A stretch of DNA of 64,000 nucleotides from Maridesulfovibrio sp. (GTDB taxonomy: Bacteria > Desulfobacterota > Desulfovibrionia > Desulfovibrionales > Desulfovibrionaceae), in contig NZ_OY781616.1 in assembly GCF_963677005.1 (NCBI RefSeq), forward strand, positions 4,016,501 to 4,080,500, in the 5' to 3' direction. Positions 6,824 to 22,200 of the stretch are shown here, piece by piece. A program made the translations under genes and the position numbers. The notes beneath the pieces were generated by a model. It saw nothing but the letters and a program-made list of their open reading frames with translations. It searched no databases and had not been told where the DNA came from. Each line of letters starts with the position of its first letter. Position 1 is the first letter of the stretch.

Positions 6824-6898
6824 TGGGACATCGTTCAATTGGCAGGACGACGGGTTCTGGCTCCGTTAATCAAGGTTCGAGTCCTTGTGTCCCAGCCA
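6824..6898 (+). tRNA. tRNA-Gln (anticodon CTG)
   Basis: Complete cloverleaf: acceptor stem TGGGACA/TGTCCCA, D arm GTTC...GGAC, anticodon stem ACGGG/TCCGT enclosing loop TTCTGGC with anticodon CTG, T arm with GGTTCGAGTCC, and an encoded CCA end. First of three tRNA genes in one transcription unit. Confidence 0.95.
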
Positions 6899-6918
6899 CA
6901 GCAATACTAATGAGATGT

Positions 6919-6996
6919 GTCCCCATCGTCTAGCCTGGCCCAGGACACCTGCCTTTCACGCAGGCGACAGGGGTTCAAATCCCCTTGGGGACGCCA
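6919..6996 (+). tRNA. tRNA-Glu (anticodon TTC), copy 1
   Basis: Acceptor stem GTCCCCA/TGGGGAC, anticodon stem CCTGC/GCAGG enclosing loop CTTTCAC with anticodon TTC, T loop GGTTCAAATCC and encoded CCA. It lies 20 bases after tRNA-Gln. Confidence 0.95.
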
Positions 6997-7089
6997 CTCA
7001 TCAAAGATCTGAATTGCCAGAGCAGGTCTTGCCCTTACCGGCTTCAACATCGTGATTCAGGCCACGGAAGCAGGTACATATTTTGATGC

Positions 7090-7167
7090 GTCCCCATCGT
7101 CTAGCCTGGCCCAGGACACCTGCCTTTCACGCAGGCGACAGGGGTTCAAATCCCCTTGGGGACGCCA
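7090..7167 (+). tRNA. tRNA-Glu (anticodon TTC), copy 2
   Basis: All 78 bases are identical to copy 1 at 6919-6996, while the 93-base spacer between them is unique. This points to a local tandem duplication or to conversion that keeps the copies identical. It is followed 11 bases later by a strong terminator. Confidence 0.95.
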
Positions 7168-13727: not shown

Positions 13728-14712
13728 TTTGTCATGCCTCCTCTTGAAAACAACTTCACAATATGATGTCAGCCAATTTAAGCAACAATCGTCTTCCAGT
13801 CCTTACATTTTTTACAAAGTCGGCGATGGGACTGTCTTTATATGCCTTTAACTACTCTTGCTATTTCATATAACTATATGTTTTTCTGATGTGTTTAAGC
13901 TGTTTTGATTATCCGTATTGATGTATTGCCGGTGTTGACCGGAACTCGTTCCATCTCGGTTGTATTCTACTCTGGTGAATTGTGCTGCACATCATGGGTA
14001 TTGGCTTGTTCGGTTTTTTTCTTTTGTTTCAGCTGGATGAGTAACAGTATTTGATGCTTAATATATAACGTTCTTTTTTGCATACCATTAAATTATGCAT
14101 AAAAAAAGTCTCATAATAGCATGAAAACAGTAGAAGCTTAAAAAACAGTATTACTACTGCCTGTTAGCGTTTTAAAAAATTGATAGCAGGAAAAGTTTCC
14201 CTTTTTTCTTTGTTGCGCTTGTTACGATTCATGATGTTGCCGCGCTGAGAGTCGCTTTGGTGAACACTGTGGGTATGGACGTTGGTATAGGTGTTTTGGC
14301 TGCTTGATAAACTAATTTGTTATTTTGTTGTTTTTTATTCTTCAATATAATTTGAAATTAATTCCTTTTGTGTAATAATGCTTGTGAATTTTAGGTTTAT
14401 ATATGTTTGTTTTTTACAAAAAACGTATGTTTTCTAAAGTTTGCAACTGTTTTCACTTGCAGAGCTGTCTGTGGAAACGTTCTTTGTATCGCGGCCGGAG
14501 GGGCCGCCTGAGGCTTGAGAGGAAGCGGTCTTTCTGGGAGTTGTCTCTTTAAATCCACAGTGTTTTGTGCACGGCATGTGCATGAAAGACTATCCGGGAC
14601 CGGGGGAGGTCCTGCGGTGGGTTAAGCATGGAAGACTGATTGTGAAAACACGGCCTGTGTCAGTTGGTGGGGAACCTGCTGATGCCGGTTTCAGGTGGAA
14701 AACAGGTGGAGT
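13728..14712. other. AT-rich intergenic region of about 1 kb
   Basis: No reading frame here resembles a protein, and base composition is visibly more AT-rich than the flanking genes up to about 14460. It holds the start region of the activator gene (minus) and of the CheW fusion gene (plus). Minor structure: TGCAT/ATGCA with flanking T and A runs around 14073-14107, and a GC hairpin GCGGCC/GGCCGC at 14491-14507. The length is unusual for this compact genome; an unrecognised small RNA or decayed gene is possible but nothing specific supports it. Confidence 0.5.
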
Positions 14713-17352
14713 ATGTCCAGTTTTGTCTATCGCGACGTTACTGTCCCGGAAGAGTTGAGGGGTATCATCAATTACATGGTCGGTGTTGAGCGGTACAGGG
14801 AGGAACTTTCAAATCTGGGCAGCCAGTGGGATCTGCTCACCATACTCGGGCAGATGAGCGGGACCGGTACCGATATGACCGGGACGCGCAAGGGATTTAT
14901 GACTCTTACTTCCGAGCTCCTTGGACAGTTGGGGCTTGAAACCATGAAAAAGACATCACAGGCTATCGGGGCCAAAGCACAGGTTGCTGTCGATATCGTG
15001 ATCAGAAACCTGTTTGAGCGTACAGCGGATATAGGATTTCTTGCTACGGATAATGATGTCCGTGAATTTTTAAGAGTGCTGGCCCGGGCGCGGGATGAAG
15101 ATGAAATAGATTCCGAAGTAATTGACGATATGCTTTCCTCCATGGTCGACAGGTTTCGCGAGTATGTGGATAAGTATTCGGTATATTTTGATATAGTTCT
15201 GATGGATACCGATGGGCAGGTGGTGGCCCGGCTGGACCGGAACTGGATGATAGCCAGTTCCGCATCGCCGTTTGTGGCAGAGGCGTTATCCACGGCGCGC
15301 GATTATGTTGAATACTTCGGCCCCAGTGATCTCCTTCCCGGAGCTGGGGACTCCCTTATTTACGCTTATCGAGTTACGGAAACCGATGATTCTGCTTCTC
15401 CGGCACTTGGTGTTCTGGCGCTTTGCTTTCGTTTCCAGAACGAGATGGAAGGGATTTTCAGGAAGTTGACCAACGAGGGAGACTGGGCGGTTCTGTCTCT
15501 TCTGGACAGCAACGGACGGGTGATTGCCAGTTCGGATGAAGATCAGGTCCGGCGCGGTGCCATAATGGAACCGGCCCTCGGTGATGAATGCACGGTGGTG
15601 CGCTTTGCCGGGCGGGAGTATCTTGCCAAAACATGCCGGACAAACGGTTATGAGGGCTTTTTCGGTCTCGGCTGGTACGGCCATGCAATGTTGCCTCTTG
15701 AGCACGCTTTTGATGATGAGATCAGAACCCTTTCCCAGAGGGTGGATGAGAAGGTGCTGGAAGCCGTGATGAGCGACCCGCGTCTTTTTTCCGAGGAACT
15801 GCGCGGAATTCCTGTTCAGGCCGACAGGATTCAGGCCGAACTTGAAAGGACTGTCTGGAACGGAAACGTGCGTGAGAACGATGCCCAGTCCAAGGTGCTG
15901 CTGTGGAATATCTCCGATGCCGGGGCCAGAACCAAGTCCGTTTTCGAGAAATCCATAGGCAATCTCCATGAGACTGTTGTTTCAGCCATTCTGGACGATG
16001 TGGAGTTTCAGGCCGCACTGACCGTGGACATAATGGATCGAAATCTTTATGAGCGGGCCAATGACTGCCGCTGGTGGGCTTTGACAACCGCTTTCAGGAA
16101 AATTCTGTCCCAGCCCAGGACGAGCGCAGCGGACATAGAAACCGTTTCAGGCATTCTGGCTTACATAAACGGGTTGTATACCGTGTACACCAATCTGTTC
16201 GTGTATGACTCCAAAGGCAGGATACTGGCGGTATCCAATCCGAAAGAGCAGCAATTGGTCGGAACCATGCTTAATGCTGCCTGGACCCATGAAACCCTGA
16301 ATATCAAGGACAGCCAGAAATACAGCGTATCAGCCTTTGAACCGACTTCTCTTTATGGCGGCGAGTATACATATATATATGGGGCGTCCATCACGGATAT
16401 TGATAATTCGCGAAAGGTTGTCGGCGGAATCGGTATTGTTTTCGACGGCCTTCCGCAGTTCAAGGCCATGTTGCAGGACTCGCTGCCCAAGGACGGAACA
16501 GACGGCTGTTTCGGTGTTTTTGCCGACCGCAACCATATCATCATAAGTTCCACAGACGAAAACCATCAGGTCGGAGACAGACTCAATATTCACGATGATT
16601 TTTTTGCACTGGATAACGGACGGAAGACTTCGCGCATAATTGAATATGCCGGGCAGTATTACGCAGTGGGAGCCTGCACGAGTTCCGGATATCGCGAGTA
16701 CAAGACAGAAGACAGCTATTGTAATGATGTGGTCGGACTTGTCTTCGTTCCTCTTGCTGAGATATCTGAAAATGTTGTGGTAGCGACCCGTCAGCGGGAG
16801 ATCGGCATGGATGTGGTCAAGGCCCGTTCAGGAAATGAAGATTGTGTGGAAATAGCTTCTTTTTATGTAGGGGATAAATGGCTCGGCATCAAGGCCGAAA
16901 AGGTTGTGGAGGCCATCCGGCTGGAGGATGTTACCGATATTCCGGGCTCGCATCCTTCCCTGCGGGGCAAGATTCACTATAAGAACGAAATTGTCCCGGT
17001 TATACAGATTCATGAGCAGGTCGGCGGGAATTACCCGGAAGACGAGAGCCGACTGCAGGTTGTCGTTGTAAATTATAAGCAGGACGAAGGAAGTTTCCGG
17101 CTGCTGGGCATCATTGTTGATTCCCTGGCTGAAATACCGGAGGTCTGCAACAGTCGTCTGGACTGCACCATGTCTACTCTGGATCGCAACGGGTACATTG
17201 AGTGTCTGGTTAAGCCGGAAATGAATTCAAAGCGTAAGGGTATGCTGGTTGTGATAAGTCCGGAAGGTCTTATGAATCACCTTGCAGAATATTCCTGCCG
17301 AGGCGACGGCAAGGTAAAAAAACTGGTCTTGCCGGAAACTGAAAAAATATAA
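14713..17352 (+). CDS. soluble tandem-sensor protein with C-terminal CheW domain
   Basis: An 879-residue protein without a signal peptide or clear membrane helix. Two related sensor-like modules stand in tandem, each starting with RNL[FY]ER-x-(A/N)D (RNLFERTAD near residue 98, RNLYERAND near 443), followed by Cache-like stretches such as FDIVLMDTDGQVVARL and NLFVYDSKGRILAVSN. A CheW domain closes the protein (about 711-860: IASFYVGDKWLGIKAEKVVEAIR...GIIVDSLAEIPEV). CheW couples receptors to the kinase CheA, so this may be a cytoplasmic one-piece input adaptor for chemotaxis or a related pathway. The ATG at 14713 with AGGTGG before it is preferred over a GTG at 14695. No other chemotaxis gene is nearby; the ligand is unknown. 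Confidence 0.8.
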   Translation: MSSFVYRDVTVPEELRGIINYMVGVERYREELSNLGSQWDLLTILGQMSGTGTDMTGTRKGFMTLTSELLGQLGLETMKKTSQAIGAKAQVAVDIVIRNLFERTADIGFLATDNDVREFLRVLARARDEDEIDSEVIDDMLSSMVDRFREYVDKYSVYFDIVLMDTDGQVVARLDRNWMIASSASPFVAEALSTARDYVEYFGPSDLLPGAGDSLIYAYRVTETDDSASPALGVLALCFRFQNEMEGIFRKLTNEGDWAVLSLLDSNGRVIASSDEDQVRRGAIMEPALGDECTVVRFAGREYLAKTCRTNGYEGFFGLGWYGHAMLPLEHAFDDEIRTLSQRVDEKVLEAVMSDPRLFSEELRGIPVQADRIQAELERTVWNGNVRENDAQSKVLLWNISDAGARTKSVFEKSIGNLHETVVSAILDDVEFQAALTVDIMDRNLYERANDCRWWALTTAFRKILSQPRTSAADIETVSGILAYINGLYTVYTNLFVYDSKGRILAVSNPKEQQLVGTMLNAAWTHETLNIKDSQKYSVSAFEPTSLYGGEYTYIYGASITDIDNSRKVVGGIGIVFDGLPQFKAMLQDSLPKDGTDGCFGVFADRNHIIISSTDENHQVGDRLNIHDDFFALDNGRKTSRIIEYAGQYYAVGACTSSGYREYKTEDSYCNDVVGLVFVPLAEISENVVVATRQREIGMDVVKARSGNEDCVEIASFYVGDKWLGIKAEKVVEAIRLEDVTDIPGSHPSLRGKIHYKNEIVPVIQIHEQVGGNYPEDESRLQVVVVNYKQDEGSFRLLGIIVDSLAEIPEVCNSRLDCTMSTLDRNGYIECLVKPEMNSKRKGMLVVISPEGLMNHLAEYSCRGDGKVKKLVLPETEKI

Positions 17353-17489: not shown

Positions 17490-17509
17490 ATTCAGGAGAG
17501 AAAGCTGAA

Positions 17510-17860
17510 ATGATCCTTGTTCACTACCCCAGTTGAACCACTTCCCGCAAAGCCAAGGCTTGGCTTGAGGAAAACGGCATTGATTTCACCATACGGCATA
17601 TAGTCAAGGAAACCCCTTCTCGTGAGGAATTTCTTGCCTGGCAGAAGATCGCCGGGGTGGATAAAAAGAAATTCGTTAATACCAACGGGAAAAAATACAA
17701 GGAATCCGGTCTCAAGGATTCCATAGACACAATGCCGGACTCCGAGCTTTTCGAGTTGATTTCCGGTGACGGCATGCTGGTCAAGCGTCCCATACTGGTT
17801 GGGAACGATTTTGTGCTGATAGGGTTCAAGCTGGCGGAGTGGGAAGCCCGGTTGTTATGA
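17510..17860 (+). CDS. ArsC/Spx-family thioredoxin-fold protein, probable selenoprotein (Sec9 encoded by TGA)
   Basis: The frame starts at ATG 17510 (AGGAG at 17494-17498) and reads through a TGA at 17534-17536 to a stop at 17858-17860, giving 116 residues. With the TGA as selenocysteine (U) the start is MILVHYPSUTTSRKAKAW, matching the ArsC/Spx/YffB pattern YPKC-x-x-[CS]-x-KA with U exactly at the active-site cysteine. The rest is a complete family member: FVNTNGKKYKESGLKD, GMLVKRPILV and VLIGFKLAEWE. A bacterial SECIS-like hairpin follows the TGA. The Sec residue would act as the redox nucleophile in a glutaredoxin-like reaction; arsenate reduction is one option but not shown. Gene callers would take only the fragment from 17657. 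A nonsense mutation is the alternative, but the exact position and hairpin argue against it. Confidence 0.82.
17537..17567 (+). promoter_or_regulatory. candidate bacterial SECIS element
   Basis: Directly after the in-frame TGA, a 7-bp perfect stem AAGCCAA (17550-17556) / TTGGCTT (17560-17566) encloses the loop GGC. The loop starts 20 bases after the TGA, and a G is first in the loop. Both fit the known requirements for bacterial SECIS elements (hairpin close behind UGA, G in the first loop positions). Confidence 0.65.
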
Positions 17861-19015: not shown

Positions 19016-19288
19016 CGGGAGTCTCCTTGGCGGGATCACGGTTATGTCTCTGAGTTGTGCAGTGACATCTGTAATAACCATGCCGCTCAACATTATTTAC
19101 GGTGCCTTGAGTTGTCAAGACACCATATCTGCGCGATAATGTTTCTTTTTTGTCTTCATGAGGTCTGCAGGTTCGCTTGCTTAAACCGTCTACCCGTATT
19201 AGCCTTTGCTGTGCCTGTGTTTTGCGCATCCGGACAGGCGTACATGTAATCTTTTTTGATTTTTTAATTTATGGAGGGTGTTCCGGAA

Positions 19289-19753
19289 ATGAAATCCGTA
19301 AAGAACATAGCGGTGGTCGCGCATGACCATTGCAAAAAGGAACTGCTTGATTTTGTTGATTGCAATTTCGAGGCTTTGGTCAGACACAACCTTCTGGCCA
19401 CCGGCACAACCGGGGGGCTGGTGGAGGATCTTATCAGCAGAAGGGCCGCCGAAGCAGGGCTTGAGCACAAACCCGTGAACAGAATGAAATCCGGGCCGCT
19501 GGGCGGCGATCAGCAGCTCGGGGCAAGCATAGCAGAGGGCCGTATAGACGTGCTTATTTTTTTCTGGGACCCCATGCAGCCCCAGCCCCATGATGTTGAC
19601 GTGAAGGCGCTGCTGCGGCTGGCCGTACTGTATAACATCCCGACCGCGAGCAATCGGTCTTCAGCTGAATTTCTTATCTCGTCACCTTATTTTCAAAAGG
19701 AATATGAAATCAGGCCGGAAGATTTTTCGTATTACACGGGGCGTGCTGTTTAA
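19289..19753 (+). CDS. mgsA: methylglyoxal synthase
   Basis: Converts dihydroxyacetone phosphate to methylglyoxal and phosphate, a bypass of lower glycolysis used when phosphate is short or sugar phosphates accumulate. The 154 residues match the E. coli enzyme closely: IAVVAHDHCKKELL, ATGTTGGLVEDLI, KSGPLGGDQQLGA, VLIFFWDPMQPQPHDVDVKALLRLA. The catalytic Asp of SGPLGGDQ and the phosphate-binding GTTG are present. The start at 19289 is preferred because GGAGGG lies about 9 bases upstream; the ATG at 19271 would contain that ribosome site. It is a single gene followed by a terminator. Confidence 0.95.
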   Translation: MKSVKNIAVVAHDHCKKELLDFVDCNFEALVRHNLLATGTTGGLVEDLISRRAAEAGLEHKPVNRMKSGPLGGDQQLGASIAEGRIDVLIFFWDPMQPQPHDVDVKALLRLAVLYNIPTASNRSSAEFLISSPYFQKEYEIRPEDFSYYTGRAV

Positions 19754-20871: not shown

Positions 20872-22200
20872 ATGCAGGCGGAACGGGTGGATGACTCACT
20901 GCGGGAAAGTTATGATCGATGCCAGAAATGGGTCGCTTCCGATGGGGTTGATATTGATGACGAAATTGTGGAGGAGGCAGTAAGGGAGGCGGAACGCGGG
21001 ACTCTTTTCTGCCAGAAAAATGGAATGACCAACCGGATGCAAACTGTGTGTACCGCGCATGTGCGTGATTCGTTGGGCGGTTTTCAGCAGGTCTATTCCG
21101 AGTTCATGCTTGCCTGCTCACCTTATATAGAAAAGATCAGGCAGGTTACTCATCTGGAGGAACGGTATCGCATGGTGGATGATGAAGTTGACCAGAAGAT
21201 ACGGGACGAGGAGAGGACTCTTAAGTCGACGGCCGGGTATGATGAAGCGTGTATAGAGCTTGATGAAGCGGTCACCCATTACAGGAAGATCAGGCAGAGT
21301 GAGGGAAACCGTGTTGTTACACTGCGACCTTTCTGGCTTTATGTCATTCTCCTTTCCCTAGTCGCTGTAGGCGAGGTGATGATCAACTATAATTTCCTGC
21401 TCAAGTTCATGGATATTCCGGCCTTTGCGCTGGCCACCTCGGCCGCTATCGGCGGTGTGGTCGCCTGGGCTTCGCATGAGCACGGCAGGGCGCTTAAGCA
21501 GTTCACCTTTTATTTCGGAAGCCATGTCCGCCCTGAGGAGAAGAAGCATGTCGGCTGGCATTTTGCTGTTGCAACCATGTTTCTTGCCGTGGTTTTTGTG
21601 GCGGTCTATTACGTGCGCTACATTGCTGTGGTCAACGCAAATGCCAACATGATGGTGCAGCTGGGCAATAATATTCTGGACAATGGTTACAAGGCAGGCA
21701 GGGGTATGGGACCGACCGCCGCTGCCCTGACCAGTCTCGGGTCCAACGTTGCCGTATGGGGATTGAGCATCTGGATTTCAACCATGTTTCACGACAGGAA
21801 TCCTCATTACATGGAAGCGGCCCTGCAGAAGAAAAAGGCCGAGGCCAGGCTGAATAAAATTACAAAAACAAGAAACGCCAATGTCAATGCCTACAATGCC
21901 GGAAGGTCAGTTGGCAGGGAAGAGGTCCGCAACGAGATCAAGGCGTTGACCGAGGATCTCGGCGAGCAGTTGCAACTCTACAAGCAGGTGCAGGCCAAGC
22001 GGGACAAGATAATCAGCCAGATGGTCAACGAGACCAACAGGAATCTGGTTCTCTACAAGCAGACGCTTATGAGTTTTTTGTCCAGCAACGGTTCCGTGAA
22101 AATTTACGGCGAAGGCAACGAACCGATCAGTTATGATGAATATGACCGGATGAATGTCAGCGCAGACGAAAACTACATAATGCAGCTGATACGCTGGTAA
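20872..22200 (+). CDS. four-TM coiled-coil membrane protein, family not recognised
   Basis: I do not recognise the family. The 442 residues show a charged, helical N-terminal cytoplasmic-type region (1-150, with coiled-coil character at about 90-145), four hydrophobic helices (about 153-173, 183-201, 228-251, 282-304), and a second long charged helical region (310-410) with coiled-coil character (KKKAEARLNKI, LGEQLQLYKQVQAKRDK). GSNVAVWGLSIWIS forms the last helix. The ribosome site AGGAG precedes the ATG. It sits between an OmpA-like lipoprotein and a secreted VWA-like protein, so it may be the inner-membrane part of the same complex. No catalytic motif is visible. Confidence 0.7.
   Translation: MQAERVDDSLRESYDRCQKWVASDGVDIDDEIVEEAVREAERGTLFCQKNGMTNRMQTVCTAHVRDSLGGFQQVYSEFMLACSPYIEKIRQVTHLEERYRMVDDEVDQKIRDEERTLKSTAGYDEACIELDEAVTHYRKIRQSEGNRVVTLRPFWLYVILLSLVAVGEVMINYNFLLKFMDIPAFALATSAAIGGVVAWASHEHGRALKQFTFYFGSHVRPEEKKHVGWHFAVATMFLAVVFVAVYYVRYIAVVNANANMMVQLGNNILDNGYKAGRGMGPTAAALTSLGSNVAVWGLSIWISTMFHDRNPHYMEAALQKKKAEARLNKITKTRNANVNAYNAGRSVGREEVRNEIKALTEDLGEQLQLYKQVQAKRDKIISQMVNETNRNLVLYKQTLMSFLSSNGSVKIYGEGNEPISYDEYDRMNVSADENYIMQLIRW

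Follow-up and report, generated by a model that had tools for sequence, protein, structure and literature searches.

Selenocysteine (Sec)-containing relatives of arsenate reductase have been reported under several names. Table 1 of a 2005 paper lists 14 'Arsenate reductase' selenoprotein sequences under COG1393 (PMC1088965), and a 2006 study lists an 'ArsC-like' protein of Desulfotalea psychrophila and a 'distant ArsC homolog' of Desulfuromonas acetoxidans (PMC1794560). Two types appear in a 2008 study, 'ArsC 1' (pfam03960, UxxS, 77 sequences) and 'Arsenate reductase 2' (cd03032, UxxC) (PMC2398784). A 2026 review equates arsenate reductase with TIGR00014 and a UxxS motif, and an 'Arsenate reductase-like protein' with NF041106 and UxxC; the terms 'TIGR01617' and 'Spx' are absent from its main text, and the subfamily described below is no entry of its table (PMC13188914). 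That table holds one regulator-like entry, 'Putative regulatory protein, FmdB family', with a UxxU motif and no sequence, and the review considers most uncharacterised selenoproteins likely to be redox in function (PMC13188914). Among Spx-like proteins, the YusI subfamily is reported to include OseR (CD1777) of Clostridioides difficile, a CXXV-type protein that lacks Gly52 and is placed with non-clostridial YusI proteins; it is an O2-responsive repressor, which keeps O2-reductase genes repressed as long as oxygen is absent (PMC11481553). In the open-licence literature, among the matches listed, no title or abstract concerns a Sec subfamily of TIGR01617, and none a Spx-type selenoprotein regulator. 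The terms 'ArsC' and 'arsenate' are absent from PMC5029168, PMC1914089 and PMC12013277, and in the available text of PMC12822559 selenocysteine figures solely as a toxic amino acid.

Here we describe a candidate gene of this kind in a window of 64,000 nucleotides that corresponds to positions 4016501-4080500 of the complete 4.26-Mb genome of a sulfate-reducing bacterium (Desulfovibrionaceae); all coordinates below are window positions. A read-through CDS on the plus strand (17510..17860) would encode a Sec-containing protein of ArsC fold (TIGR01617, Spx/MgsR-like) of 116 aa plus stop. It opens with ATG at 17510 and closes with a terminal TGA at 17858-17860. A ribosome-binding site, AGGAGA, was read from the sequence at 17494..17499 (+), 10 nt before the ATG, and GGAG-like purine-rich sites lie upstream of the gene in most displayed relatives. 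The sole interruption is an in-frame TGA at codon 9 (17534..17536, +), which falls just before helix 1 at the family's catalytic Cys position and aligns with C12 of E. coli ArsC. An earlier note, made from the window's letters, had claimed that this TGA is the only break in an otherwise intact frame and that standard gene calling would yield a truncated gene from 17657. Both claims hold: read-through gives 116 residues with no further interruption, and the only entry of the conventional ORF list in this frame is a 67-aa tail with a GTG start (17657..17860, +). The U-x-x-S arrangement that the note read is likewise present in the translation, with Sec9 followed by Ser12 (17543..17545, +), which replaces the second Cys of CxxC forms. 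Sec9 is the sole Cys or Sec residue of the window protein; Cys91 is the sole extra Cys in three of 15 Desulfovibrionales Sec proteins.

Codon 9 was compared in 152 distinct loci (159 chosen, minus seven exact duplicates). It is TGA in 52, TGT in 51, TGC in 49 and never any other codon. By this comparison, agreement among relatives at codon 9 far exceeds what chance would give. Cys homologues, which the earlier note had proposed to look for, align exactly at the TGA in 100 of the 152 loci, one of them from a congeneric species. The note had named any other sense codon at this place as evidence against Sec, and none of the 152 loci has one. One TGA carrier, G001 (L008), was left out, and the codon and pN/pS counts therefore use 15 of the 16 Desulfovibrionales Sec loci. 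Also outside the counts are a broken second copy in G313 and a contig-end fragment in G303 (L108-L111), together with six weak phylum-level hits (L113-L118). The second copy in G313 (L206, G313:C1:2533000-2540000; hits L108, L110 and L111) keeps the TGA and is broken downstream into three pieces in different frames, the appearance of a decaying duplicate; L105, the genome's second locus for this gene, can be read through. One of the weak hits, L116 (G684:C3:331512-331796, same phylum), is a distant ArsC-family relative of 24% identity with TGA at the Cys position, then TTC (UxxC), and may belong to the ArsC-related UxxC selenoproteins already on record.

Among near relatives the gene was found in 12 of 58, with TGA in 11 and TGT in one (G014, L012); across the order Desulfovibrionales it occurs in 17 of 348 genomes and three of 59 genera, with 16 TGA and one TGT (Cys). 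A scan of genome contigs retrieved 61 relatives, seven with TGA and 54 with Cys at codon 9. In the order of Peptacetobacter hominis a homologue is present in 150 of 297 genomes; among the matches listed, at least 37 rows (36 genomes) contain TGA, all at codon 9, and codon 9 was read in 44 rows without a stop (25 + 19). Sixty named loci of the 152 span seven phyla, and the TGA loci, where named, belong to Thermodesulfobacteriota and Bacillota. Plasmid records gave 1,777 matches at <60% identity. Of two plasmid-listed records examined, both chromosome-sized, the one of Acetoanaerobium noterae has TGA at codon 9 and the other has TGT. The records NZ_CP154629.1 (2.6 Mb) and NZ_CP084075.1 (2.1 Mb) are listed as plasmids, are of chromosome-like size and have almost no gene table. 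Viral contigs yielded 51 pattern matches, none of them a relative.

Downstream of the TGA lies a putative bacterial SECIS hairpin, AAGCCAA-GGC-TTGGCTT (17550..17566, +), that fits the published bacterial SECIS model. Its 7-bp stem pairs 17550-17556 with 17560-17566 around a GGC loop (17557-17559), with a spacer of 13 nt between TGA and stem and of 20 nt between TGA and first loop base. Published bSECIS values are a loop of 3-9 nt with G among its first two bases and at a distance of 16-37 nt after the UGA, a stem of 4-16 bp and an MFE <= -7.5 kcal/mol (PMC13188914, Fig. 2 legend). The 7-bp hairpin with a GGC loop 20 bases past the TGA, as reported in the earlier note, was confirmed and lies within all of these values (3-nt GGC loop, 7 bp, spacing of 20, 54-nt fold of -11.6); its upper stem by itself scores -6.3. 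Energy thresholds of -3, -5, -7 and -8 kcal/mol were compared across the 152 loci. A SECIS-like hairpin of <= -3 kcal/mol is present in 52 of 52 TGA loci versus 19 of 100 Cys loci, and one of <= -5 kcal/mol in 45 of 52 versus nine of 100; at -7 kcal/mol the upper-stem score leaves two of 52 Sec loci versus two of 100 Cys loci, and the contrast is gone. Hairpin codons 15-17 are invariant in the Desulfovibrionales Sec loci (GCC in 15/15, AAG in 15/15 and GCT in 12/12 with Ala), whereas most degenerate codons around the hairpin vary in the same 15 loci. Synonymous recoding of the same peptide produced an equal or better SECIS-like hairpin in only 37 of 5,000 trials. The folding energy of the 48 nt downstream is unremarkable, with 31.65% of 2,000 recodings as low. 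A mechanical scan of both strands of the 64 kb, requiring >=70 open codons after a TGA and a hairpin of <= -6 kcal/mol, found seven read-through TGAs, the window case included. By itself, the hairpin is weak evidence for Sec.

At the same-genus Cys locus (L012, G014), GCT has become GCC and the loop has widened from 3 to 5 nt; the hairpin still scores -6.1 and is therefore a relic, not lost. At one Sec locus, L010, the hairpin is absent from the predicted minimum-energy fold. The same hairpin was found in Clostridia too. In the clostridial Sec genomes G915 and G729 (L177, L180) the best SECIS-like element is another perfect 7-bp hairpin, ATTGGCT-GGA-AGCCAAT, 29 nt past the TGA, which suggests, by its sequence, a separate origin of the element.

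The source genome encodes the whole Sec machinery. The earlier note had called for a search for selA, selB, selC and selD, with absence of selB or selC to count against Sec; all four are there. Scores are 609 bits for selA (cut-off 268), 385 bits for selB (cut-off 242), 336 bits for selD (cut-off 125) and 83 bits for tRNA-Sec (cut-off 47), the last with anticodon TCA (ARAGORN). The selD of this genome (L029, G000:C1:2289173-2290096) has an in-frame TGA of its own and is therefore itself a probable selenoprotein. Among 18 other distinct carriers, one of them the Cys carrier, SelB exceeds its cut-off in 17 (18 of 19 genome labels, G303 and G350 being one genome). The exception, at E 1e-60, is one TGA carrier, the fragmented MAG G029, in which tRNA-Sec is present. 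All 20 other genomes tested have tRNA-Sec, including six of the same genus where the gene was not found; the Sec system is thus in place with or without this gene, which makes optional use of it.

Collectively, the TGA at the Cys codon of relatives, the SECIS-like hairpin and the complete Sec machinery identify the gene as a candidate selenoprotein gene, and we regard Sec insertion at codon 9, as predicted from these sequences, as nearly certain. Two accounts would do without it. The TGA could be a real stop in a nonsense-mutated gene, or an error of sequencing, and conventional ORF callers do return only the tail, as a broken gene would have it. We consider this scarcely credible: the same TGA recurs across the order (16 genomes) and in the clostridial rows counted above, the hairpin is conserved, and purifying selection extends past the TGA (median pN/pS 0.19 over 105 pairs from 15 loci, with pS near saturation). 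Conservation of the TGA in the 16 genomes of the order was the ground on which a pseudogene or sequencing error was ruled out. The TGA might instead be read as another amino acid, such as Trp, by leaky termination that needs no selenium. This is just as hard to credit: nothing was found in its favour, all 100 sense-codon loci encode Cys and none Trp, and Sec machinery and hairpin are present.

The earlier note assigned the protein to the ArsC/Spx family, and profile searches agree: PF03960 (Pfam ArsC) matches with 59.5 bits against a gathering cut-off of 24, and TIGR01617 (Spx/MgsR family) with 99.2 bits against a curated cut-off of 75.05. TIGR01617 also matches 12 of 12 members of alignment A1 at E 0.001, and ten of ten other relatives score 88-112 bits. 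Three other profiles score below their cut-offs, namely TIGR00014 arsenate reductase (51.3 bits; 106.05), canonical Spx (NF002459 and kin; 60.4 bits; 123) and NF041106 ArsC_rel_Se_1 (23.5 bits; 85). By these profile scores, the predicted protein belongs to TIGR01617 (Spx/MgsR-like), not to the arsenate reductases. An AlphaFold2 model has a mean pLDDT of 96.7 and places residue 9 directly before a helix of residues 10-21. The nearest solved fold is 3gkx of Bacteroides fragilis (TM 0.93, 46% identity), and 3fz4 of Streptococcus mutans (TM 0.89, 35% identity) and 2m46 of Staphylococcus aureus (TM 0.87, 40% identity) are similar; Spx itself (3gfk) reaches TM 0.87 and E. coli ArsC 0.78-0.79. Unlike the window protein, 3gkx, 2m46 and 3fz4 have Cys in a CxxC motif, and their titles give functions only as 'putative'.

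Sec and Cys have been exchanged repeatedly at this position. A tree of 152 rows was built from 118 columns, few for that number of rows, and its bootstrap is not fully settled. The best tree implies at least 12 Sec/Cys exchanges, of which well-supported branches force at least eight. Cases in point are L012, which falls within the window's genus, L217 beside L153, and a group of ten CxxV proteins among UxxV proteins. One group (support 100/98) unites 16 Desulfovibrionales proteins with four clostridial Sec proteins (G898, G801, G752 and G883), a grouping that points to a transfer between phyla, in one direction or the other. Clostridial CxxV and UxxV loci have upstream genes in common, which supports orthology, though it names no function, and from which we infer a swap in place in Clostridia. 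By eye, these upstream genes have the look of an amino-acid ABC transporter. In raw counts the second Cys is kept in nine of 52 Sec loci versus 84 of 100 Cys loci. A coupling of Sec to loss of the second Cys was rejected on a tree-aware comparison, in which none of eight independent pairs differs. The association of Sec with a residue other than Lys at position 17, a codon inside the hairpin, is non-significant (about four of eight pairs agree, none is opposite, median p 0.125).

The gene neighbourhood was rejected as a functional clue: it is common only within the genus and indicates no function. Neighbouring genes in the window encode a Cache/CheW protein, an MFS transporter (opposite strand) and an MGS-domain protein. 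A short protein is the commonest neighbour across the 17 Desulfovibrionales loci; it lies within the retrieved stretch of 11 of 11 same-genus loci and of none of the six others. By mechanical ORF calls, gene order is common within the genus and is not shared with the six loci of other genera; the commonest neighbour being confined to the genus, sharing reaches no further than kinship. The 885-aa protein at 14695-17352 has a C-terminal CheW domain, a Cache match below cut-off and no hit to a chemoreceptor signalling domain. The MGS-domain (methylglyoxal-synthase-like) protein is encoded at 19271-19753, and relatives lie near the Sec gene in eight of the 17 Desulfovibrionales loci, all same-genus. 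Further downstream, a 442-aa ORF at 20872-22200 has no Pfam match at 1e-5. A three-tRNA cluster, Gln(CTG), Glu(TTC) and Glu(TTC), occupies 6824-7167.

Several traits connect the window protein with the YusI/OseR subfamily. It has the Spx-like fold and an RPI motif (K-R93-P-I); Arg93 (17786..17788, +) aligns with R94 of E. coli ArsC in 46 of 46 sequences. Gly52 of Spx, which contacts the RNA polymerase alpha CTD, is absent and replaced by Asp51 (hand-counted numbering). The ten CxxV proteins that group among UxxV proteins share 44-48% identity with the window protein, and in one of their genomes a neighbouring stretch is 87% identical to a C. difficile plasmid record. From the motif and this DNA match, not from the OseR sequence, we infer that the ten are probably OseR orthologues. 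UxxV and CxxV proteins are close relatives of each other; on sequence identity, the window protein is a more distant relative of the ten.

We hold it very probable that the gene specifies a Sec-containing one-selenol redox protein of the TIGR01617 Spx-like subfamily. SelB with Sec-tRNA would decode the UGA, and the resulting 116-residue ArsC-fold protein would present Sec9, its sole redox residue, at the tip of helix 1. Because the window protein is devoid of Cys, its sequence makes an internal selenenylsulfide impossible, and so a partner thiol would be needed. Once oxidised, Sec9 would have to pair with a second protein or with a small thiol, giving a mixed selenenylsulfide, and its reset would have to come from outside the protein. 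Judged from sequence, the protein would most likely stand alone as a one-selenol redox protein within the YusI/OseR branch of Spx-like proteins; in an anaerobe it could act as an oxidation-sensitive switch or as a thiol oxidoreductase. The earlier note's view of a one-nucleophile enzyme thus stands as to the single nucleophile, no other Cys being present; its 'highly reactive' goes beyond the evidence, which also gives no clear preference to an enzyme over a redox sensor.

Given Sec, a role as redox sensor or regulator, drawn by analogy, is a realistic prospect short of being probable, a Grx-like reductase role by the same kind of analogy is rated alike, and some different role seems improbable. 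Judged from sequence, switch and one-selenol reductase would be about equally likely. A Sec glutaredoxin-like monothiol reductase would act on mixed disulfides or a small oxidised substrate and be recycled by thioredoxin or a low-molecular thiol; we rate it a serious contender, if not a probable one. The H-x3-U-x3-R motif together with R93 could bind an anion or thiolate; the protein has the ArsC/Grx fold with its nucleophile at the start of helix 1, and the expectation that uncharacterised selenoproteins are mostly redox proteins (PMC13188914) also fits a reductase. However, no reductase or substrate gene travels along across genera. Moreover, to our knowledge OseR and Spx are the nearest kin with any tested role, and both are regulators. 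This regulatory role of the kin, as described in PMC11481553, speaks against a reductase. A more specific proposal makes the protein a Sec-based redox sensor. As a transcription regulator within the YusI/OseR branch, it would have Sec for the sensing Cys and detect trace oxygen in anaerobes of two phyla, Sec and Cys having been swapped repeatedly and, in Clostridia, at one shared locus; by analogy with OseR we regard this as conceivable but less likely than not. The family name would instead suggest a Sec-containing arsenate reductase, and the PF03960 match, the H5-x3-U9-x3-R13 spacing, equal to that of H8, C12 and R16 of E. coli ArsC, and the published UxxS 'arsenate reductase' selenoproteins (PMC1088965, PMC2398784) lend that name some support. 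Against it stand the TIGR00014 score, at about half its cut-off, and the five neighbouring window ORFs scanned, which include no ars gene. In addition, we take arginines 60, 94 and 107 of E. coli ArsC to have a role in its arsenate reductase activity, and R94 is kept in 46 of 46 sequences, but R60 is replaced by Asn57 and R107 falls in a gap in all 46. A classical arsenate reductase was rejected as most unlikely on the residues at R60 and R107 and the TIGR00014 score, and we give an arsenate-reducing role very little credence.

If the proposed reading is true, ordinary gene calling truncates the gene, and an annotation that follows the family name would wrongly call it an arsenate reductase. 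With so many natural Sec/Cys exchanges at a single active site, including one in the genus of the window, the family offers a good natural experiment on when Sec repays its cost. Should the protein be a regulator, selenium chemistry would enter bacterial oxygen sensing; given the published FmdB-family entry, any claim to a first such regulator would have to be restricted to the Spx type.

ArsC-fold selenoproteins have been known since 2005, and the TIGR01617 Sec subfamily appears to be undescribed, set apart from the published UxxS proteins by their descriptions. Like the published TIGR00014 UxxS ArsC selenoproteins, the window protein has an ArsC fold, Sec at the catalytic Cys, a UxxS motif and a bSECIS downstream; unlike them, it falls below the TIGR00014 cut-off, lacks two of the three arsenate arginines and belongs to TIGR01617. 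The NF041106 and cd03032 UxxC proteins are likewise ArsC-related selenoproteins, with UxxC in place of the window protein's UxxS. We take cd03032 to be a Spx-type domain; if so, the 2008 study already included a Spx-type Sec protein, named there as an arsenate reductase. The Desulfotalea and Desulfuromonas proteins are deltaproteobacterial Sec-containing ArsC relatives that, as described, may or may not be of this subfamily (PMC1794560). OseR and the window protein have in common a YusI-type ArsC fold, the absence of Gly52, the RPI motif and a redox residue that lacks the CxxC partner Cys; OseR has Cys in CXXV and is a regulator, whereas the window protein has a predicted Sec in UxxS. New relative to these systems are a subfamily in Desulfovibrionales and Clostridia, its repeated Sec/Cys exchange and its kinship to OseR-type regulators.
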